A model generated the notes under the pieces. It was not told the origin of the DNA, did no database searches, and worked only from the letters and a program-made list of their open reading frames with translations. From the NCBI GenBank assembly GCA_026388735.1, contig JAPLJG010000052.1, positions 1 to 59,711 of the forward strand: DNA of 59,711 nt, read 5' to 3'. The stretch comes from Deltaproteobacteria bacterium. Lineage in GTDB: Bacteria > Desulfobacterota > Desulfobulbia > Desulfobulbales > Desulfurivibrionaceae. This document shows, in pieces, positions 4,311-15,786 of the stretch. The first letter of the stretch is position 1. Every line of letters begins with the position of its first letter. The translations under genes were made by a program, and so were the position numbers.

Positions 4311-4817
4311 CTACGCGGTTAATTTTTCACTCTCTTCCCCAACCCACTCCTCGACCTCAGCCGGGGAAGGCATCCGCCCGGCGCATTTTACCGTGCCGTT
4401 GATGATCAGGGCCGGGGTCTTTGTTACCCCGAAGCGCCAGATCTCATCCAGATCATGCACCGCCTCCATATCGGCGGCCAGACCGAATTTTTGCAGGGCT
4501 TCAAAGAGCATGGCGCTGAGTTTGTTGCAGGTCACGCAGCCGGAGCCCAGCACCCGGATGGTGAGGTTTCTCAGTTCGGGACCCTGTATCCCCTGGCGGC
4601 GGCGGTATTCGCCGAGCAAGGCCTCGCGGTAGATCGGCTCCGCTGTTATGGGGATGTAATTTTCTCTGGAAACGGTGGCAAAAAGAAAATCCACCGCAGC
4701 CTCTTCCGGCATCTGTTCGCTCAGAGCCTTGCTCAGGGCCTGGTCAAGGCCGATCAGGCCGATATTGGCCGCGCCGATTCGGATGGTCCGGGGCGCGGGG
4801 ATGTCCTGGTTTTGCAT
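4311..4817 (-). CDS. thioredoxin-fold protein, MTH895/TM0996-like
   Basis: A 168-residue protein. The C-terminal 80 residues form a small thioredoxin/glutaredoxin-like domain of the MTH895/TM0996 type with the redox pair CVTC (RVLGSGCVTCNKL) and the cis-Pro region KTPALIINGTVKCAG. The N-terminal 80 residues are a separate region that I do not recognise. It probably acts in thiol-disulfide exchange in the cytoplasm, as no signal peptide is seen. The start at 4817 has AGGAATCCCC directly upstream; an upstream 11-residue extension is less supported. It is 39 nt downstream of the large nuclease-helicase gene in the same direction. Confidence 0.8.
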   Translation of the reverse strand: MQNQDIPAPRTIRIGAANIGLIGLDQALSKALSEQMPEEAAVDFLFATVSRENYIPITAEPIYREALLGEYRRRQGIQGPELRNLTIRVLGSGCVTCNKLSAMLFEALQKFGLAADMEAVHDLDEIWRFGVTKTPALIINGTVKCAGRMPSPAEVEEWVGEESEKLTA

Positions 4818-4856
4818 GGGGATTCCTGTGTGTGATACGGCCGTTGCCAAGCCCCG

Positions 4857-7800
4857 TTAAAAAAGTTGCAACTGCCGACCGCTGGCATTCCGTCGCTTGG
4901 CCAGGGGCTGGCCCGTCTCGCTCAGCAGGGAGGCCGGAATCTCCTGGATAAACCGGGAGGGGCTGTGTCCGGTGGTCCGATTGAAGATGGTGCGGTTCGC
5001 GGCGGCGCTTAAAACTAGATTTTCCTGCGCCCTGGTCATGGCGACATAGAGGAGGCGGCGTTCTTCTTCCACATCGCTGTGCAGATTGGCAATGGTGCAG
5101 GGGAGAATCTCTTCTTCAATTCCGGGGAGAAAAACTACTGGAAATTCCAACCCTTTGGCGGCATGCATGGTCATGAGGGCCACGGCTTCCGCCCGTGCAT
5201 CGTAGGCTGTGGCCTGGGCGTTTTGCCGGAGGTGTTCGCAAAACGCTTGGAGATCGTTGCCAAAGGCATTGGCCAGGTGGAGTAGACGTTTGGCCTCTGG
5301 TACCTGTGGATCAATGCCCAGCCCGGGCATGGCCTCGGCCAAGGGGCGGGCAATGTCGTGCTCTGTAGCCTGGCGGAAATTTTTGAGGGTTTCGCCCATC
5401 TCCTGGATGATTTTTGCTGCGCTGGCCGGCAGGGCAAGGGTGAGCGCCTCGCCATAAAAATCAGGACAGCGCAAGGGGAGTTCTTTTTCCAAGAGGGAGA
5501 TGGTTGCCTCTCCGACTCCTGGGAGATTTGCAATCAGCAGGAGATGCTCGCTTAAGCCCGCGTCCGCCGCGCTGGCCAGGAGGAAATGGCAGGCGGCCTT
5601 CAGGGCGGGTTTCAGGTAAAAGGGGGTGGCGCCAACGAGCTGGAAGGGGATGCCCTTGTGGTGCAAGGCTTCGGCAATGGGCTCGGTCATCTGGCTGAGC
5701 CGGTAGAGAACGGCGAAATCGGCAAAACTTCGGGCTGTGCCGCTGCTCCGCCCGGTGTGCCGGGAAAGGCTGCTGATGCCGCCCAACCCCTCTTCGATGC
5801 GTCGCACGATAAACTCCGCCTCGGCCTGGGCGCTTGCCGCCTGATGCCACTCAATGAGAGCCGTGCTGGTACTTTCGGCCAGGAGCTGGGTGTCGCCGCT
5901 CTGCCGGTTTCGGCGGATGAGGGCGGCCGCGCCATCGATAATGGCCGGGGCGGAACGGTAGTTGCGGATCAGGGCCAGGGTGGTGACGCCCTGCCTTTCC
6001 CGGAAACGTTGGAACAGGGTGAGGTCGCTGCCGCGAAAGCCGTAAATGGCCTGGTTGGGGTCGCCGATGGCGAATACCCGCGCCTGAAAGCCGAGCAACA
6101 GAACCAACTGGTATTGGGGATGGTTGAGATCCTGAAACTCGTCAACAAAGAGATGGGCTACCCGGCCAGTGAGCTGGCTGGCACGGGCGGGATCGTGGCT
6201 CAGGCGCTCCACGCACCAGGGGATGACCAGATCAAGGTCGATGGTCTTGTTCGGCGTAAGCGAGGCAAGATAGCGATCAAGGAGATCCGGCAGGGCGGCA
6301 TCGGCAGGGAGCGTCCCCCTGTTTAGCTGGTCAACATGGGCGGCCAGTTGCTTTTTCAGGATGTGGTGTTCGGCCCGGGGCCAGTCCGGAAAGGTCTTGC
6401 GCAGATAAAGATCGCGCTCCTCCTCGCCGATGACCACGAGGTCGGGGTGTTCCTTGCGCAACAGGGACAGGCAATAGGCATGGAAGGTGCCCACGACGAT
6501 GGCCTGGGCCGCCTTGCCGAGACCCCGGTCCAGGCGTTCTTGCATCTCGCGGGCTGCCCGGTTGGTGAAGGTGATGGCCACCATCTCTTCGGGGCGGGCA
6601 TGCTCCGCGGTCAGCAGATGTTCGATCCTGGCCACCAGGGTAAAGGTTTTGCCGGTGCCCGGCCCGGCAGCAACGAGGATGGTTTCTTCCCTGCTGGTGA
6701 TGGCGGCAAGTTGCTCCGGATTGGGCTTTCTCGGAGCCTGATGCAGGTCTGCGGGCGGAGAGGGTTTCTTTTCAAGGGGCAGCGGGCTGCGGTCCTGTTT
6801 TTTGGACGGCGAGGCTGTCTTTTTTCCGGCGAATAGGCTGATCTGTCCGGCCAGCTCCTGCCGCTCGCCTTCGGCAAAAACCTGGATCACCCCGAATTCC
6901 CCATCGTAGCCAGGGGTGCGGATGACCTTGCCCGTGCGGATACGAGCCACCGCCTCGCCCAGCACCGGGGACATCCGGTTGATCTCGTCCACCGGGGTGT
7001 TGAGCAGCAGGTTGAACTCCGAACCAAAGCGGTCGATGACTTTTGCGTACAGGGCCATCACCCCCTTGGTGGCAGGACCCGCGCCGAGAATCTCGCCCAG
7101 CACCTCGGGCAACGGGATCAGGCTATGCACCGCAGGCGAGCCTGGCGGATAATAGGGCTCGGTCCGTTCGGCCAGTTCCATAACCCGGTGCAATACCCCC
7201 ACGGTGAGGGGCTTGCCGCAGACCGGGCATGTTGCCCCGATCTTTCTGGTTTCGGCGGGTTCAAGGCAGACCTGGCAGTTGCGGTGGCCGTCGGCATGGT
7301 ATTTCCCTTCTTCCGGGTAGAATTCGATCGTGGCGGCAAAGGCGTTGGTCAGGGGATTTTTCAGGGCCTCGCGCAGAGAGAAAAAGTCGAAGCCGGTGTT
7401 GAAGATATTGGCCTCCCGGCCCAGCTTGCCGGGGGAATGGCAATCGGAATTGGAGATGAGGGCGAAGCGGTCCAGAGCCGGAATGAGGCGGTTCATGTCC
7501 GGGTCCGAGGAGAGGCCGGTTTCGAGGGCAAAGACGTGGGGGCTGAGGTCGCCGTAGCATTCCTCAATGGTGTTGAAGCCGGAGCGGGAGCCGAACAGGG
7601 AGAACCATGGCGTCCAGATGTGGGCCGGAACCAGAAAGCCTTCGGGTGCCTTTTCAAGTAGGATTTCGAGAAGGTCGCGGGAATCAAGGCCCAAAATGGG
7701 GCGGCCATCGGACACGATGTTGCCGATGCCGGCCAGGACGCTGTTTATCCGTTCCGCCGAGGCGAAATCGGGCACATAGAGCAGGTTATGGACCTTGCGC

Positions 7801-8108
7801 ACCGCGCCGTGGCGCTTATAGATGGAGCTGATCTCGGCGGTGAGCAGGAAGCGGCTTGGGAGAGCCTCCGGTGTTACCTGTGACAGGGCAGGGGGGATTG
7901 CCTCATCCTTGAGCTTATAAAATCCCGGTTCGGCAGGGACAAGCTGCTCTTTGAGCTGGCTGAACCAGCCGGGATGGGTGAAATCGCCGGTGCCCAGCAG
8001 GTGGATGCCTTTGACCCTGGCCCAGGCGGCAAGGCCTTGCAGGTTGCCGGCCTTGCTGGTCGCACGGGAGAAGGGGGAGTGGATGTGAAGATCAGCGATA
8101 TAGCGCAT
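4857..8108 (-). CDS. Endonuclease Q-type PHP nuclease fused to UvrD-like helicase
   Basis: A 1083-residue fusion. Residues 1 to about 420 look like Endonuclease Q (TIGR00375/PHP family), which in archaea and some Bacillus cuts DNA 5' of deaminated bases: start MRYIADLHIHSPFSRATSKA, GTGDFTHPGW, SNSDCHSP, a four-Cys zinc ribbon (CQVC, CPVCGK) followed by LTVGVLHRVMELA, and a C-terminal PGYDGEFG. Residues from about 470 are a superfamily 1A helicase: Walker A AAGPGTGKT (about 480), FVDEFQDLN (about 657), GDPNQAIYGFRG, RNYRSAPAI, MHAAKGLEFPVVF (about 984) and RRLLYVAMTRAQ. It probably nicks at damaged bases and unwinds from the nick. The ATG at 8108 is chosen by homology; a TTG at 8126 would add six residues. 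All key motifs are intact. Confidence 0.88.
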   Translation of the reverse strand: MRYIADLHIHSPFSRATSKAGNLQGLAAWARVKGIHLLGTGDFTHPGWFSQLKEQLVPAEPGFYKLKDEAIPPALSQVTPEALPSRFLLTAEISSIYKRHGAVRKVHNLLYVPDFASAERINSVLAGIGNIVSDGRPILGLDSRDLLEILLEKAPEGFLVPAHIWTPWFSLFGSRSGFNTIEECYGDLSPHVFALETGLSSDPDMNRLIPALDRFALISNSDCHSPGKLGREANIFNTGFDFFSLREALKNPLTNAFAATIEFYPEEGKYHADGHRNCQVCLEPAETRKIGATCPVCGKPLTVGVLHRVMELAERTEPYYPPGSPAVHSLIPLPEVLGEILGAGPATKGVMALYAKVIDRFGSEFNLLLNTPVDEINRMSPVLGEAVARIRTGKVIRTPGYDGEFGVIQVFAEGERQELAGQISLFAGKKTASPSKKQDRSPLPLEKKPSPPADLHQAPRKPNPEQLAAITSREETILVAAGPGTGKTFTLVARIEHLLTAEHARPEEMVAITFTNRAAREMQERLDRGLGKAAQAIVVGTFHAYCLSLLRKEHPDLVVIGEEERDLYLRKTFPDWPRAEHHILKKQLAAHVDQLNRGTLPADAALPDLLDRYLASLTPNKTIDLDLVIPWCVERLSHDPARASQLTGRVAHLFVDEFQDLNHPQYQLVLLLGFQARVFAIGDPNQAIYGFRGSDLTLFQRFRERQGVTTLALIRNYRSAPAIIDGAAALIRRNRQSGDTQLLAESTSTALIEWHQAASAQAEAEFIVRRIEEGLGGISSLSRHTGRSSGTARSFADFAVLYRLSQMTEPIAEALHHKGIPFQLVGATPFYLKPALKAACHFLLASAADAGLSEHLLLIANLPGVGEATISLLEKELPLRCPDFYGEALTLALPASAAKIIQEMGETLKNFRQATEHDIARPLAEAMPGLGIDPQVPEAKRLLHLANAFGNDLQAFCEHLRQNAQATAYDARAEAVALMTMHAAKGLEFPVVFLPGIEEEILPCTIANLHSDVEEERRLLYVAMTRAQENLVLSAAANRTIFNRTTGHSPSRFIQEIPASLLSETGQPLAKRRNASGRQLQLF

Positions 8109-8373
8109 TTTTTCGTTGCCGCCCAAAAAAGAGAAAAATCGACGTGAATCGATGAATCTTACACAGATTCTATCTTGCTGTCCACGCCGTATTTAGGGGC
8201 CGTTACGAAGCATTTCGTTACAGCCCCTTATGCCGTCTTGGTTATCCGAAACGAGACCTTGTTGTGTTTTTGAACGCCGGCTTCTCTACGGAAAATGGGT
8301 GGCCTTCCTGTAAAAAAATCGCTATATATTGAGGACTGCATTTCGAATGATTTTAAAGAAAGGGAGCCAGAAA
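8109..8373. promoter_or_regulatory. divergent intergenic region with imperfect palindrome
   Basis: The 265-nt gap between the divergent nuclease-helicase and reductase genes must hold both promoters. The clearest structure is an imperfect inverted repeat at about 8196-8228: GGGGCCGTTACGAA, GCAT, TTCGTTACAGCCCC (12 of 14 positions pair). It could be an operator shared by both genes or an RNA hairpin. I cannot assign promoter boxes with confidence. Confidence 0.4.
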
Positions 8374-9297
8374 ATGGTTGATCAAATAACAGACGTGGTG
8401 ATTATCGGTGCTGGTCCGGCAGGACTCCAGGCCGCCGTGCATGCAGCCCGAAAAAAGGCTTCGGTGCTTGTTTTGGGCCGAGTGGAAAATAGCAGTATTT
8501 CTCAGGCCCATGTTGAGAATTATCTCTGTGTCGATGGCGTGACCGCCGGGGCGGACTTGCTGCGGGTTGCTCTGGCCCAGGCCATCCGTTTTGGCGCGGA
8601 GGTGTGGCCGGAGGATGTCCTAAGTCTTGGCCAGGAAGGAGAGCTGTTCACGGTCAAGGTGGAAAGCGGACGGCAGGTCACGGCCCGGACCCTGATCCTG
8701 GCCACCGGCACCTCGCGTAAAAAGTTGAAGGTACCTGGCGAGAAGGAGCTGCTGGGACGTGGAGTCAGTTACTGCGTGGATTGCGATGCCAATTTTTATC
8801 GCAACGCCAAGGTGGCGGTGGTGGGCAACGAATCCGCTGCGGTGGACGGAGCCTTGACCCTTACCAAATACGCCGCCGAGGTCCATCTGGTCTGTAAGAA
8901 TCTGACGGTCACAACGGAGCTTGGTGAAAAGCTGGCCGCCAGCTCTGTAGTGGTGCATAAGGGAGTGTGGCCCAAGGAGATTGTCGGCGAAAAAGCGGTG
9001 AGCGGCCTTGCGCTGGACAGCGGCGAGACCCTTGCCGTGGAGGGAGTATTTGTCGAACTCGGGGCCAAGGGGGCCATGGAGCTTGCCACCAGCATCGGCG
9101 TTATGCTCGACACGGAGACCTTCTCTTTTATCGAGACCAATAAGAAACAAGAAACCAATATCCCCGGCATCTACGCGGCGGGTGACATAGCCGGGCCTCC
9201 CTGGCAAATGGCTAAGGCGGTGGGCGAGGGGTGCGTGGCCGGCTGGGAGGCTGCAAACCATGCCAACCAGCTCAAGCGCACGCCGGAAAGCGTCTAG
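8374..9297 (+). CDS. thioredoxin reductase-like FAD/NAD(P) oxidoreductase
   Basis: A 307-residue flavoprotein of the TrxB fold. It has the FAD dinucleotide motif IIGAGPAGLQAAV near the N-terminus, a redox-active CVDC at about residues 133-136, a second NAD(P)-binding segment VVGNESAAVDGALTL, and the FAD-contact block GIYAAGDIAGPPWQ. The NADPH motif departs from the usual GGGxSA, so cofactor preference and partner may differ from classical thioredoxin reductase. The start at 8374 is chosen because GGGAG stands 9 nt upstream; upstream in-frame codons lack support. The gene overlaps the start of tadA by 38 nt. Confidence 0.85.
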   Translation: MVDQITDVVIIGAGPAGLQAAVHAARKKASVLVLGRVENSSISQAHVENYLCVDGVTAGADLLRVALAQAIRFGAEVWPEDVLSLGQEGELFTVKVESGRQVTARTLILATGTSRKKLKVPGEKELLGRGVSYCVDCDANFYRNAKVAVVGNESAAVDGALTLTKYAAEVHLVCKNLTVTTELGEKLAASSVVVHKGVWPKEIVGEKAVSGLALDSGETLAVEGVFVELGAKGAMELATSIGVMLDTETFSFIETNKKQETNIPGIYAAGDIAGPPWQMAKAVGEGCVAGWEAANHANQLKRTPESV

Positions 9298-9814
9298 CGT
9301 GCCGGATTTTTTATCGATGGACTCTCCCGCGCACTACATGGAGGTCGCCCTTGCCGAGGCGCGGTTTGCGGCGGAGCGGGGCGAGGTGCCCATCGGTGCG
9401 GTGCTGGTGGATGCAGCCGGACAGATCATCGCCCGAGATGGTAACCGCACCATCGAGCTGTGCGATCCCGGGGCGCACGCCGAGATGCTGGTGCTGCGGC
9501 AGGCGGGAAGATTGCTAGGGAATTACCGATTGCCCGGCACCACCCTCTATGTTACTCTCGAACCCTGCGTGATGTGCGCCGGTGCCCTGGTGCATGCTCG
9601 GGTGAGCCATCTGGTCTATGGGGCTGTCGACCCCAAGGCCGGTGGGGTTGTCTCTCTTTTTCAGGTCGGGCAGGACACGCGGCTCAACCATCTGCTGGCC
9701 GTGGAAGGTGGCTTGCTGGCCGAAGAGAGCGCCACCCTGCTGAAGGATTTCTTCCGGCAGAGAAGGGGCGTGGCAGGTGAGGGCATAAGGTCGGAGCGGC
9801 TTCAGTCGCGATAA
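9260..9814 (+). CDS. tadA: tRNA adenosine(34) deaminase
   Basis: TadA deaminates A34 to inosine in tRNA-Arg(ACG). The zinc-binding and catalytic motifs are visible: HAE (in GAHAEMLVL) and PCVMC (in LEPCVMCAGAL), with the family end region around FFRQRRG. Length 184 residues from the ATG at 9260. This start lies inside the upstream reductase gene but has GGGAGG about 9 nt upstream; the core domain only begins near MDSPAHYMEVAL, so a GTG at 9299 or the ATG at 9317 are alternatives, though neither has a clear ribosome-binding site. The overlap suggests coupled translation with the reductase. Confidence 0.92.
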   Translation: MPTSSSARRKASSVPDFLSMDSPAHYMEVALAEARFAAERGEVPIGAVLVDAAGQIIARDGNRTIELCDPGAHAEMLVLRQAGRLLGNYRLPGTTLYVTLEPCVMCAGALVHARVSHLVYGAVDPKAGGVVSLFQVGQDTRLNHLLAVEGGLLAEESATLLKDFFRQRRGVAGEGIRSERLQSR

Positions 9815-9826
9815 TCTGTGTGAAAC

Positions 9827-9919
<93 letters not shown>

Positions 9920-10068: not shown

Positions 10069-10507
10069 ATGAACAACACACAATGTTTAAGCCATGCGAA
10101 GTGGGAATGCAAGTACCATGTCGTATGGATACCCAAGTGCCGCCGGAAGGTTTTATACGGGGAACTTCGCAAGCATCTTGGTGAAATTTTGCGTGAATTG
10201 GCTTGGCAAAAGGAGTGCAAGATATTGGAAGGGTATTTGCAATCCGATCATGTGCATATGCTGATGTCAATTCCGCTGAAGTATTCAGTTGCGCAAGTCG
10301 TGGGGTATATCAAAGGAAAAAGCGCTATTCAAATAGCGCGGAGCTACTTGGGACAACGGAAGAATTATTCCGGGATGCATTTTTGGGCGCGGGGCTATTA
10401 TGTGTCAACTGTCGGGACGGATGAAGGGGTTGTTCGAGCCTAATATAAAGGACCAGGAAAAAGAAGACAACCGCCTTGAGCAATTGACGATGTTCCGGGG
10501 AAGTTGA
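10069..10507 (+). pseudogene. tnpA: IS200-family Y1 transposase, frameshifted and lacking the catalytic Tyr
   Basis: The first 124 codons give a normal TnpA body (WECKYHVVWIPKCRRKVLYG, the HUH pair in SDHVHML, YIKGKS, HFWARGYYVSTVG) but end at TAA at 10441-10443. The expected C-terminal helix continues in another frame to TGA at 10505 (NIKDQEKEDNRLEQ). The whole span is one nucleotide off a multiple of three. In addition the catalytic tyrosine of the YxxxQ motif is replaced by Asn (codon at 10442-10444; NIKDQ). Both defects should abolish strand cleavage, so this copy is expected to be immobile in its own right. Confidence 0.85.
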
Positions 10508-10949: not shown

Positions 10950-12338
10950 ATGGATTTAGGACTATTGTCTTTATTGATGATTGCCAGGCACCATGGAATT
11001 GCCGCTGATGAAGCGCAATTGCGGCACGAATTCGGCCAAAAGCTGTTTTCGACGGAAACCATTCTTTTGGCCGCCAAGCGTCTTGGGATGACAGCCAAGG
11101 TTGTTGAGCAAGAGGAAGCCCGTCTAGATCGTGCGCCTCTGCCTGCCATTGCCATTGACAAACAAGGAAATTATTTTATCGCCGTAAAGTTTGGCTATGA
11201 GGGCGGTGATAAGACTCGGCCCAAAATGATAACCCAACAGCCCGGCAACCCTACCCCCCAGGTCTTGGATCTGCCGGAATTCATGGAACAGTGGTCGGGG
11301 CAATTTATTTTTTGTACTTCCAAAGCGACGTACCTGAGGGATCTCACCAAGTTCGACTTCAGCTGGTTTATTCCGGCCATCGTCAAATACCGGAAACTGT
11401 TTGGCGAAATCCTGGTGATCTCCTTTGTCCTCCAGCTCATCGGCCTGGCGACCCCACTGGCCTTTCAGGTGGTGATGGACAAGGTTTTGGTCAACCATGC
11501 CATGAAAACACTCAATGTCATTGCCATTGGGCTGCTAGCGGCAACCCTCTTTGAAGTCATTCTTACCGGAATCCGTACTTGGGTTTTTGCCCGGACCAGT
11601 AGCAAGATCGATGTCGAACTCGGGGCAAGACTCTTTCGACATCTGCTAGCCCTGCCGATTGCCTATTTCCAGGCACGGCGGGTTGGCGACTCTGTGGCGC
11701 GTATTCGGGAGCTGGAAAATATCCGCTCTTTCCTCACCGGTAATGCCCTCACCCTGGTGCTGGACCTGTTCTTCTCGTTTGTCTTTATTTTCGTCATGCT
11801 CTGGTATAGCAAGTTGCTTACCCTCATTGTGGTAATCTCCATCCCACTGTATGTCCTTTTGGCAGTGGGGATTACCCCGATCCTGCGCGCCCGTTTGAAA
11901 GAAAAATTCGACACCGGCGCTAAAAATCAGGCCTTCTTGGTGGAGTCGATCAGTGGCATCGACACAGTCAAGTCCATGGCCGTGGAGCCGCGCTGGATCG
12001 ATAACTGGGAAAAACAACTCTCTACCTATGTCTCAGCAGGATTGGATGCCACCAACGTCGGCACCATTGCCAATAGTGGGGTAACCATGGTGAGTAAGCT
12101 TGTGACCGTAGCCCTTCTTTGGGTGGGCGCAGGTCTCGTTGTGGAGGGTAACTTGACGGTGGGGCAGCTGATAGCCTTTAATATGCTCTCGGGTCGGCTC
12201 ACCGAGCCAATTTTGCGCATTGCCCAGTTGTGGAATAGTTTTCAGCAGGTAGGGGTTTCCATGGAGCGTCTGGGAGACATCCTCAACGCGCCGATGGAAG
12301 TGGTGGGGCAGAAAACAAGAATTCCCCGGTTGGGTTAA
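10950..12338 (+). pseudogene. type I secretion ABC transporter, N-terminal and membrane part (gene broken)
   Basis: This frame encodes the peptidase-C39-like N-terminal domain (MDLGLLSLLMIARHHGIAAD, no catalytic Cys, as in HlyB/RTX exporters) and the six-helix membrane domain (from FDFSWFIPAIVKYRKLF to [10 protein letters not shown]), 462 codons. It stops at TAA 12336-12338 just before the nucleotide-binding domain. The ATPase continues in another frame. The strand that should carry the first part of the ATPase domain (about 25 residues including the aromatic A-loop) is missing between IPRL and [10 protein letters not shown], so this is a deletion of roughly 70-80 nt, not a point indel. GAGGG precedes the ATG. 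It is the first gene of a type I secretion operon. Confidence 0.85.
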
Positions 12339-12360
12339 TCTCAAGATCGTCCCCGGCGAA

Positions 12361-13023
12361 GTGATTGGCATTGTCGGACGCTCCGGATCCGGCAAGAGCA
12401 CCCTTACCCGACTCATGCAGCGCCTGTACGTCCCGGATCGAGGGCGGGTTCTCATTGATGGCCAGGATATTTCCATTATCGATACCACTTCGCTACGCCA
12501 CCAATTGGGCATAGTCCTACAGGAAAATGTTCTTTTCACCGGCACCATCCGGGACAACATCGCCTTGGCCAACCCCGCCTTGCCTATTGAGGTTATTATC
12601 GAAGCGGCGAAACTGGCTGGCGCGCATGAGTTCATCTGCGAGTTGCCGGAAGGGTATGATTCCAAGGTGGGAGAGCATGGTACAGGATTGTCTGGCGGAC
12701 AACGGCAAAGGATTGCCATTGCCCGGGCCCTCATCTCCAACCCGCGTATCCTGATCTTTGACGAAGCCACCAGCGCCCTGGACTATGAATCGGAAAGTAT
12801 CATTCAGGAGAACATGCGCAAGATCTGTGCGGGGCGGACGGTGTTGATTATTGCCCATCGTCTTTCAGCCGTGCGGGATGCCAACCGCATCTTTGTAATG
12901 GATCGAGGACAGATTGTGGAGGAAGGGTCGCATGACGAATTGATTGCGATACAGGACGGAATTTATGCACACTTGAACCAATTGCAACTTGGCACAAGTA
13001 CAGCACAGGTGGTGGAAGGATGA
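12361..13023 (+). pseudogene. type I secretion ABC transporter, ATPase part
   Basis: This is the nucleotide-binding domain of the same transporter in a shifted frame: Walker [11 protein letters not shown]-loop region VLQENVLF, signature [16 protein letters not shown], Walker [14 protein letters not shown]-loop IIAHRLSAV. The frame is open back to about 12316 and has no good start signal of its own; the GTG at 12361 is only the first possible codon. It ends at TGA overlapping the ATG of the membrane-fusion gene. If a free ATPase fragment were made it would lack the A-loop Tyr that stacks on adenine. Confidence 0.85.
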
Positions 13024-14363
13024 GTATCAAGCATAAGTTGGAGGCATATGCGTTCTTGCTTCGTCATTATCGGCAAGTTTTTGGCCGCTTCTGGAAAGAG
13101 CGTGATCAACTGGGAGGGAATCTCTTCAAGGAGGACGAGGCGGAATTCTTGCCCGCAGCTCTCTCCCTCCAGGAAAGGCCGGTTTCGCCAAGCTTGCGGA
13201 TAACCGCCAAGATCCTGATGGCGCTGGTCGCCTTTGTGATTCTTTGGGCGATCTTTGGCCGGATGGATATTGTGGTCAACGCCACCGGTGAAATTATCCC
13301 GAGTGAGCGCACCAAAACCATTGCTTCGGTTGAAGTGGCCAGCGTCAAAGCGCTGTACGTTGAGGAAGGACAGGCGGTCAAAGAAGGAGATGTGTTGATC
13401 GAGCTGGATGCCAGCGCATCAGATGCAGAGCACGGGAAGGCGATGAGTAGTGTCACCGAAGCGACTCTCCAGATCGCACGGTCACGAGCGATGATTGAGG
13501 CGGTTGATAGCCGCCGGCCTCCAAAGCTCTTGGATATTGATGGTGTTCCGGTGGAAAAACTGCAGGAGGCTCAATTGCATCTGAATGGTCAATACCAGGA
13601 TTTTATAACTAAACTTCAACGTCTTGAAGGGGCGATAACCAGGTATTCCTTGGCCTTGCCACTGGCGACCCAGCGGGCTTCGGATTACAGGGATCTCGCT
13701 CAGAATCATGACGTTTCCGTGCATGCATATCTTGAAAAAGAGCAGGCGCGCGTTGATCTTGAAGGGCAATTGGCCGAGGCGAAAAATACGCGGGCTGCCT
13801 TGATTGCCGAAACCAGGCGCGCCGCCTTTGACGCGCAGGCAGAAGGCGACAGGATTGTTGGAGCTGGCAGGCAGGATGCCATGCGGACAGAAACCCGAAG
13901 TAAACTGCTCAAACTCACTTCGCCGGTGGATGGCACGGTGCAGCAGCTGACAGTGTTTACTGTCGGCGGGGTTGTGCCCGCAGCGCAACCGTTGATGAAA
14001 ATTGTCCCCAACGAGGACCATCTCATCGTCGAAGCCATGCTGGAAAACAAGGATATTGGCTTTGTGGAGGAAGGTCAGACAGCGGCAGTCAAGATTGCAG
14101 CCTTTGAGTATACCAAGTACGGCACAATTCCCGCCCGTGTGTTGCATGTGTCGCGCGATGCTATCAAGGATGAGAAAAAAGGCTTGCTCTATTCAGTCAT
14201 CATTGCCTTGGATAAATCCTCAATTTCTGTTAAGGGCCAAGATATGCCGTTGAGTGCGGGCATGTCCGTCAATGTGGAAATCAAAACAGGTACGCGCCGA
14301 GTGATTGAATACGTTTTGAGTCCGCTCCTACAGCACGCAAAAGAGAGTCTCAATGAGCGCTAA
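13020..14363 (+). CDS. HlyD-family type I secretion membrane fusion protein
   Basis: A 447-residue periplasmic adaptor linking the inner-membrane ABC exporter to the TolC-like channel. It has a cytoplasmic N-terminus, one membrane helix (about residues 65-83, [15 protein letters not shown]), a lipoyl/barrel-sandwich half-motif ([14 protein letters not shown]), a long coiled coil (about 150-290) and the second half-motif [19 protein letters not shown], with the C-terminal beta-barrel ending near [13 protein letters not shown]. The start ATG overlaps the ATPase stop codon (ATGA) and the end overlaps the outer-membrane gene by 11 nt, so the three genes form an operon. This gene is intact even though its ABC partner is broken. 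Confidence 0.92.
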
Positions 14364-15786
14364 ACTCCCCAGAACCGCTGCGGCAATGCTTGTCGCGGGG
14401 CTGATCTGGCCAACACTCGTCCTGGCTTTCGATCCCCTCTATCCCTTTGTTGACCCATTGCGCACGATGCCCGAGGTGGTTGATACAGGCGTAATCCTGC
14501 CAGGAGACACAGCCCCGATTCCCTGCTCGGTGCAGAAAGATTTCTCCCGCCCGCTTGCTTTGGCTGAGGCAGTGGACCTAGCCCTCTGCAACAATCCGCA
14601 AATCAGATCTGCCTGGGCGGATATCAAAATCCAGGCAGGCGCGGTGGGTGAAGCGCGCGCCGCATATCTGCCTGCACTGACCGGCTCGTTGAACCGGACC
14701 AAAGATCAGATCCGGTATTCGGACACCAGATATCCATCGAGCAATATCACCCGGAATACCGCCCAGGGGACCTTGTCCTGGAGGATCTTTGATTTTGGTG
14801 GGCGATCAGCCAACCGCCAAGCAGCCGAAAGCTTGCTGGCTGCGGCGCTGGCCAACCATAACGCTACCTTGCAAAAGGCCTTGTCTTCCGTGACCCAGGC
14901 CTATTTTGATGCGGTGACCGCTCAGGCTACCCTCACGGCCAAGACCGCAAGTGAGGACATCGCCAGAAATACCCTGCATTCCGCCAAGATACGTGAAGAC
15001 AAAGGAGCGAGCAGCCAGTCTGACACGCTGCAGGCAACAACCGCCCTGGCCAAATCGTCACTGGAAAAGAATCGTGCCCAGGGTGAGTACGAAAAGGCGC
15101 GGTCAGTGCTGGGATATATCCTGGGAATATCCGCAAATACCGCAATATTACTGCCGGAAGATCTGGCTGAGCATGTCGGAGAGAATGGCAAGGCCTTGAG
15201 TCTGTGGCTGGAAGAAACCCAGAAAAATCATCCCGCTATTCTTGCGGCCAGAAATCAACTTGAGGCAGCGCAAAAACGGGTAACCGTGGCCCGTTCCGCC
15301 GGGCTGCCTACCCTGGGCTTTTCCTCAAGCTACTATCAGAATACCCGTCCGGGCGAAGCGGTGACCTCGATCGATGCACAGGAAACTACTGTGGGGCTTA
15401 CACTATCTATTCCAATCTTTGACGGATTTGCTACCAGTTATAAGGTCCGAGGCGCGCAGGCGCAGGTCGAGCAAAAAGAAGCAGCACTCGCCGATACCGA
15501 ACATCAGATTGCCATGGAAGTAATCAAGGCGCACGCCGATGCCGCCTCCGCCTTGCATAATCTGGAGGCTTCCGCGATTTTGTTGGAAGCCGCCCAGGGT
15601 GCATTGGTGGTTTCTCAGCGCAAGTACGACAAAGGGGCTGCGGATATCATGGAATTATTGAATACGCAAGCGGCCCTGTCCGATGCACAAAAAGAACGCA
15701 TTCGCTGCTTGGCCGAATGGCGTTCCGCGCGGTTGCGGCTTCTGGCAAGCGCTGGCCAGATAGGGAGATCGGCAGTCAGGGAATGA
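14353..15786 (+). CDS. TolC-family outer-membrane channel protein
   Basis: A 477-residue outer-membrane efflux protein. A signal peptide is visible (AAAMLVAGLIWPTLVLA). Two homologous halves follow: the first begins LALAEAVDLALCNNPQIRSA and contains WRIFDFGGR; the second begins NHPAILAARNQLEAAQKR and contains SIPIFDGFATSYKVR. This duplicated helix pattern is the hallmark of TolC proteins, which trimerise to form the channel-tunnel of type I secretion. It overlaps the adaptor gene by 11 nt and is the last gene of the secretion operon. Confidence 0.92.
   Translation: MSAKLPRTAAAMLVAGLIWPTLVLAFDPLYPFVDPLRTMPEVVDTGVILPGDTAPIPCSVQKDFSRPLALAEAVDLALCNNPQIRSAWADIKIQAGAVGEARAAYLPALTGSLNRTKDQIRYSDTRYPSSNITRNTAQGTLSWRIFDFGGRSANRQAAESLLAAALANHNATLQKALSSVTQAYFDAVTAQATLTAKTASEDIARNTLHSAKIREDKGASSQSDTLQATTALAKSSLEKNRAQGEYEKARSVLGYILGISANTAILLPEDLAEHVGENGKALSLWLEETQKNHPAILAARNQLEAAQKRVTVARSAGLPTLGFSSSYYQNTRPGEAVTSIDAQETTVGLTLSIPIFDGFATSYKVRGAQAQVEQKEAALADTEHQIAMEVIKAHADAASALHNLEASAILLEAAQGALVVSQRKYDKGAADIMELLNTQAALSDAQKERIRCLAEWRSARLRLLASAGQIGRSAVRE

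Follow-up and report, generated by a model that had tools for sequence, protein, structure and literature searches.

The minus strand of the window (the whole stretch of DNA analysed here, 59,711 nt) encodes a protein that joins Endonuclease Q (EndoQ) to an SF1A helicase in one reading frame and ends in a candidate beta-clamp-binding motif. We consider it moderately probable that this fusion is a clamp-tethered EndoQ plus UvrD/PcrA-type 3′-to-5′ helicase, dedicated to nick-and-unwind repair of deaminated or abasic DNA. The fusion runs through the whole order, is widespread in bacteria and is not peculiar to the window genome.

Layout and identity of the fused protein

Inspection of the open reading frames places the ATG at 8108 and the stop codon at 4857-4859 (Table 1). 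There is an in-frame TTG upstream, at 8126, and the alignments of relatives begin at the ATG. The AlphaFold2 model of the full protein, computed from 53 aligned fused homologs, has a mean pLDDT of 87.2, with residues 424-458 (linker) and 1068-1083 (tail) as the main disordered segments. Its pTM is 0.58, so the placement of EndoQ relative to UvrD is not confidently predicted. A merged or frameshifted gene artefact is ruled out by the presence of the same fusion in most congeners and by the dN/dS values of both domains given below.

Table 1. Coordinates in the window of the fusion gene, its parts and its two flanking neighbours.
Feature	Position	Strand	Remarks
Thioredoxin_3 protein, directly downstream neighbour	4311..4850	-	Pfam E 3.8e-21; conserved neighbour; synteny marker
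EndoQ-UvrD fusion gene	4857..8108	-	1083 aa + stop; homologous fused ORFs in relatives
C-terminal candidate beta-clamp-binding motif QLQLF	4860..4874	-	aa 1079-1083, last residues of the chain
SF1A helicase, UvrD/PcrA/Rep type	4929..6722	-	aa ~463-1060; without C-terminal Tudor domain
Linker, variable, mostly disordered	6723..6869	-	aa 414-462; AlphaFold2 pLDDT <50 at 424-458; raised dN/dS
Internal candidate beta-clamp-binding motif QISLF	6831..6845	-	aa 422-426; start of disordered linker
Endonuclease Q domain (PHP catalytic domain, Zn ribbon, C-terminal part)	6870..8108	-	aa 1-413; phmmer, Foldseek, metal ligands
Zinc ribbon H275-x2-C278 ... C294-x2-C297, inside EndoQ domain	7218..7286	-	residue conservation, 74 fused proteins
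Thioredoxin-reductase-like flavoprotein, divergent neighbour	8329..9297	+	conserved neighbour; synteny marker

The N-terminal ~413 residues match Pyrococcus furiosus EndoQ (PfuEndoQ, 5zb8) end to end in phmmer (E 1.4e-51), with 127 of 373 aligned residues identical (34%). Modelled alone, this domain reaches a pLDDT of 91.7 and a pTM of 0.91, and Foldseek superposes it on 5zb8 with E 2.9e-36, TM 0.85-0.89 and an rmsd of 2.4-2.5 Å over 428 columns; the N-terminal part of the full-length model also matches PfuEndoQ (TM 0.89-0.90 by EndoQ length). In this comparison with Pyrococcus EndoQ, which the initial annotation had proposed, the structural match extends over all ~400 residues, so that the counter-evidence named there, a resemblance limited to the PHP fold, does not apply. 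The best other PHP protein returned by Foldseek is weaker by about 30 orders of magnitude (E 1.4e-5, TM 0.31-0.43), which argues that the N-terminal domain is EndoQ itself and not just another bearer of the PHP fold.

The PHP motifs first noticed in the sequence (DLHIHSPFSRATSK, GTGDFTHPGW and SNSDCHSP) are all found in the reading frame, as is the PGYDG end of EndoQ, here PGYDGEFG. The metal-binding residues, whose absence had likewise been named beforehand as possible counter-evidence, are all present in the alignment to PfuEndoQ: Pfu D6, H8, H10, D42, E76, H84, H139, E167, D193 and H195 have identical counterparts in D6, H8, H10, D42, E92, H107, H163, E196, D222 and H224 of the window protein. 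These metal and catalytic residues are identical in 72-74 of 74 fused proteins, H8 in 72 of them. Each of the substitutions E76A, H84A and H139A abolishes cutting by PfuEndoQ, and H139, G169 and S171 keep T and A out of its pocket (review PMC8307549); the corresponding E92, H107, H163, G198 and S200 do not vary among the 74 fused proteins. Of the four Cys expected in the zinc ribbon, three are kept: C278, C294 and C297 occur in 74/74, and the first ribbon position, Cys in Pfu, is His in 71 of the 74 (H275 here), still a plausible zinc ligand. The TIGR00375 score of 182.8 bits lies under the cut-off of 326.6, a model that is typed as a hypothetical equivalog, is narrower than the EndoQ fold family and was not taken as defining EndoQ. 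Given this score and the 34% identity to PfuEndoQ, the lesion preference could have shifted. The predicted incision chemistry of the fused protein is well supported by homology.

That the same chain carries a complete SF1A helicase, as the initial annotation held, agrees with the Pfam matches of the C-terminal part (UvrD-helicase, E 1.2e-53; UvrD_C, E 2e-39), with its match to PcrA 1pjr (E 1.4e-71) and with intact motor motifs. Foldseek returns UvrD, PcrA and Rep (UvrD TMt 0.73-0.77; 0.73 for 2is6). Motifs Q, I, Ia, II, III, IV, V and VI are all present, and none of the 53 fused proteins departs from the key SF1A residues (Q466, Walker A GxGKT, DExQD and those of motifs III to VI). The domain is not a PcrA/UvrD ortholog proper by score, falling under all equivalog cut-offs, and the chain has no room for the PcrA-type C-terminal Tudor domain, ending instead in the short disordered tail. 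The possibility that this is the cell's only PcrA is ruled out by a separate PcrA-like gene, with an extra C-terminal domain, on contig C96 of the window genome. Near its N-terminus, this other helicase (locus L167, genome G000) has a clamp-motif-like MQPTLF.

Distribution, inheritance and genomic neighbourhood

EndoQ domains are found in 45 of the 58 relatives, mostly within open reading frames some 1080-1190 codons long, and most congeners have the same fusion with an EndoQ 92-97% identical. At phylum level the domain occurs in 253/395 genomes, and bacterial EndoQ thus reaches far beyond the handful of genera from which it was described in 2015. Among the 150 matches listed in the phylum, 94 are of fused length and 56 stand-alone. 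In a scan of named genomes, complete fusions turned up in about a dozen named phyla, among them Thermodesulfobacteriota, Actinomycetota, Pseudomonadota, Bacillota and Spirochaetota, and also Elusimicrobiota, Melainabacteria, Verrucomicrobiota, Planctomycetota and Binatota. Many carriers are metagenome bins, and because the scan kept the 80 loci nearest the window, it probably overstates the proportion of fusions. Among the carriers in culture are Geobacter argillaceus, Saccharopolyspora hirsuta, Micromonospora okii and Saccharothrix algeriensis. At three loci (L090, L094 and L130) the EndoQ and helicase frames are adjacent and interrupted by a stop or a shift of frame, and represent either split genes or frameshifts.

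Both domains are under purifying selection: within the genus, dN/dS is 0.03-0.10 in EndoQ and 0.15-0.23 in the helicase, and it is raised in the linker. EndoQ is the better conserved module of the fusion (mean identity 59% versus 37% for the helicase). Pairwise distances of the two domains are correlated (Mantel r 0.87; 0/2000 permutations as high), and this correlation, together with the selection on both, indicates that EndoQ and helicase have been inherited as a unit.

Stand-alone EndoQ arises repeatedly within the fused group: on the EndoQ tree this state needs 12 changes, at least nine of them forced by well-supported branches. Two congeners (L156 and L157) have a stand-alone EndoQ in the same neighbourhood with Thioredoxin_3 directly behind it and no helicase between, the helicase having been deleted in place. 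Such in-place deletions favour one ancient fusion followed by many losses, on a tree without a safe root, the branch to PfuEndoQ being very long and saturated. Repeated loss of the helicase with EndoQ kept implies that the helicase is not strictly required, and we infer from the several lineages concerned that, of the two modules, EndoQ is essential and the helicase serves to enhance its work.

In members across the order, the thioredoxin-reductase-like and Thioredoxin_3 genes lie on opposite sides of EndoQ-UvrD; the Thioredoxin_3 gene is a synteny marker, outside the repair machine. A TadA gene (window 9260-9814) adjoins the reductase gene, and a thioesterase gene is also among the immediate neighbours. 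Further along, an ORF at 10069-10443 resembles by eye an IS200-type transposase, beside a tRNA-Ser (9827-9918), and ABC transporter, membrane-fusion-like and TolC-like ORFs stand in a row at 10950-15786, type I secretion-like by eye. No match to the EndoQ domain was found in phage or plasmid records, which, along with the conserved chromosomal neighbourhood, indicates that the fusion is not mobile.

Clamp-binding motifs and proposed function

The bacterial beta-clamp consensus QL[SD]LF has been revised to Q-phi-x-[LM]-[FL] (PMC13254535). A strict motif is found within the last 14 residues of 64 of 76 complete fused proteins versus 0.4% of shuffled tails, a pattern that also admits M at position 2 (53/76 without M), and 49 of the 76 chains terminate in the motif itself. 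With a looser pattern the C-terminal count rises to 70/76 (5.6% expected from shuffles). An internal loose motif follows the EndoQ domain in 38/76, versus 6% in shuffles, chiefly within the order of the window genome and among its near relatives. AlphaFold2 places QLQLF in the disordered tail and QISLF where the disordered linker begins, and the motifs are kept as the linker and tail around them vary. Archaeal EndoQ binds PCNA via a C-terminal PIP box that stimulates its cutting activity; the same work already pointed out beta-clamp motifs in EndoQ homologs from bacteria (PMC4858679). The link between EndoQ and the clamp is therefore known, and what is new is a clamp motif that ends a fused helicase. 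The clamp motifs of the fused protein are an addition to the initial annotation, whose author overlooked them. By homology, predicted clamp binding is well supported.

A variant of the chain's end was observed in genome G021 (L154:502-4263), where no stop follows QMKLF and the frame runs on through the Thioredoxin_3 gene as a triple fusion of 1254 codons; its sister genome (L153) has a stop directly after QMKLF.

In the mechanism we propose, QLQLF and probably also QISLF would, as conserved motifs, bind the hydrophobic pocket of DnaN, and this would bring the enzyme to DNA that has just been replicated or repaired. The EndoQ domain would then flip out a uracil, hypoxanthine, xanthine or abasic site and cut the bond just 5′ of the lesion, leaving a 3′-OH, as full-length homology and the identical catalytic and base-excluding residues suggest. 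In the least certain steps, the helicase would load at the nick on the intact strand and move 3′ to 5′, the lesion-bearing strand would be peeled from its 5′ end and a clamp-associated polymerase would extend the 3′-OH, the flap then being trimmed and ligated. Given the polarity of UvrD-family helicases, one travelling 3′ to 5′ along the intact strand from a nick on the 5′ side of a lesion would displace the lesion-bearing strand, 5′ end first, and expose template for the 3′-OH. For the fused protein, such helicase action is what we infer.

The discoverers of EndoQ drew both Fen1 strand displacement and helicase removal after the nick, the helicase step as one possible pathway (PMC4357722). 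A natural EndoQ-UvrD fusion with clamp tags points to one answer for this post-nick step and makes it testable in vitro and in cultured carriers, for instance Geobacter argillaceus and several actinomycetes. Held less firmly, and slightly short of what we would call probable, is a broader proposal: that one clamp-tethered polypeptide, so far unrecognised, combines the incision and strand displacement of glycosylase-independent deaminated-base repair, that this pathway extends over about a dozen phyla of bacteria, and that its helicase is a detachable part.

The order of events could also be reversed, the motor unwinding or scanning the duplex and feeding single-stranded or distorted DNA to EndoQ, so that unwinding itself is the detection step. 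EndoQ does cut uracil and hypoxanthine efficiently in single-stranded DNA (PMC11354406), and the long flexible linker between the domains in the AlphaFold2 model would suit such a transfer. We regard this order as unlikely, given that stand-alone archaeal EndoQ cuts duplex lesions without a helicase (PMC4357722, PMC6202378) and that EndoQ is kept in lineages that lost theirs.

The substrates of incision can be considered against the other repair genes. UDG-superfamily genes are present in 55/58 relatives, with two in the window genome, so uracil repair does not depend on the fusion protein, and a role of the fusion as UDG replacement is ruled out. EndoV is absent from 54/58 relatives, the window genome included, which would leave room for a hypoxanthine nuclease; hypoxanthine is thus an attractive main substrate, in a survey that covered EndoV and the UDG superfamily. 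Complementarity between EndoV and EndoQ is not demonstrable, since EndoV occurs in only four of the 58 relatives, three of which carry EndoQ as well. The EndoQ module may instead have drifted to another main substrate (abasic sites, oxidised pyrimidines or ribonucleotides), the fusion serving that pathway. The low identity to PfuEndoQ and the very long branch to it would fit, as would the retained UDG genes and the acceptance of abasic and some oxidised sites by PfuEndoQ (PMC11354406, PMC8307549). The invariance of the catalytic and base-excluding residues (H8 ligand excepted, at 72/74) and the full-length fold match to PfuEndoQ make such drift improbable.

Slightly less credible again is a neutral fusion of adjoining genes whose products work independently. 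Repeated and precise loss of the helicase, along with the few split forms known, could be read in this way; against it stand the occurrence of the fusion in about a dozen phyla with both domains constrained, their correlated divergence and the clamp motif conserved at the helicase end. Very improbable, finally, is an antiviral nuclease-helicase directed at uracil-containing or replicating phage DNA and analogous in parts to Gabija, for which GajB models are the helicase's top PADLOC matches and a defence role has been suggested for bacterial EndoQ (PMC8307549, citing B. pumilus work), and which is ruled out as the main reading by PADLOC matches (those shown) confined to the generic UvrD part, by immediate neighbours that form a stable chromosomal set with no GajA-like partner among them, by the lack of EndoQ matches in phage or plasmid records and by the joint divergence of EndoQ and helicase.

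Comparison with known systems

The initial annotation regarded the joining of EndoQ to a helicase as a new arrangement, and a search of open-access papers, with subscription papers and preprints outside it, returned no description of such a fusion. The parts are known and the architecture is apparently undescribed; automatic annotation very likely already names such proteins.

The fused protein resembles Endonuclease Q (PfuEndoQ, TkoEndoQ, MacEndoQ, B. pumilus EndoQ; TIGR00375/COG1379) in fold, PHP ligands, base-excluding residues and ribbon position and, in the window's order, in a sliding-clamp motif that closely follows this domain. It differs from the characterised enzymes, which are stand-alone, in its fusion with a helicase, in the His that replaces the first zinc Cys and in its 34% identity to Pfu. 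With UvrD, PcrA and Rep it shares the SF1A motor motifs and overall fold, but it has an N-terminal nuclease, a C-terminal clamp motif, no Tudor domain and a sub-equivalog score.

RecBCD, AddAB and AdnAB likewise combine a UvrD-type motor and a nuclease in one chain or complex. Their nuclease is of the PD-(D/E)XK type, unrelated to the PHP EndoQ nuclease found here and not lesion-specific, and the double-strand-end processing of those machines is not expected of EndoQ-UvrD. RecB has recently been shown to bind the beta clamp (PMC13254535). In the archaeal EndoQ-PCNA complex, too, a short motif, there C-terminal, holds EndoQ on the replication clamp (PMC4858679); the fused protein differs in using a bacterial clamp and motif, in having two candidate sites in the window's order and in carrying a helicase in cis.
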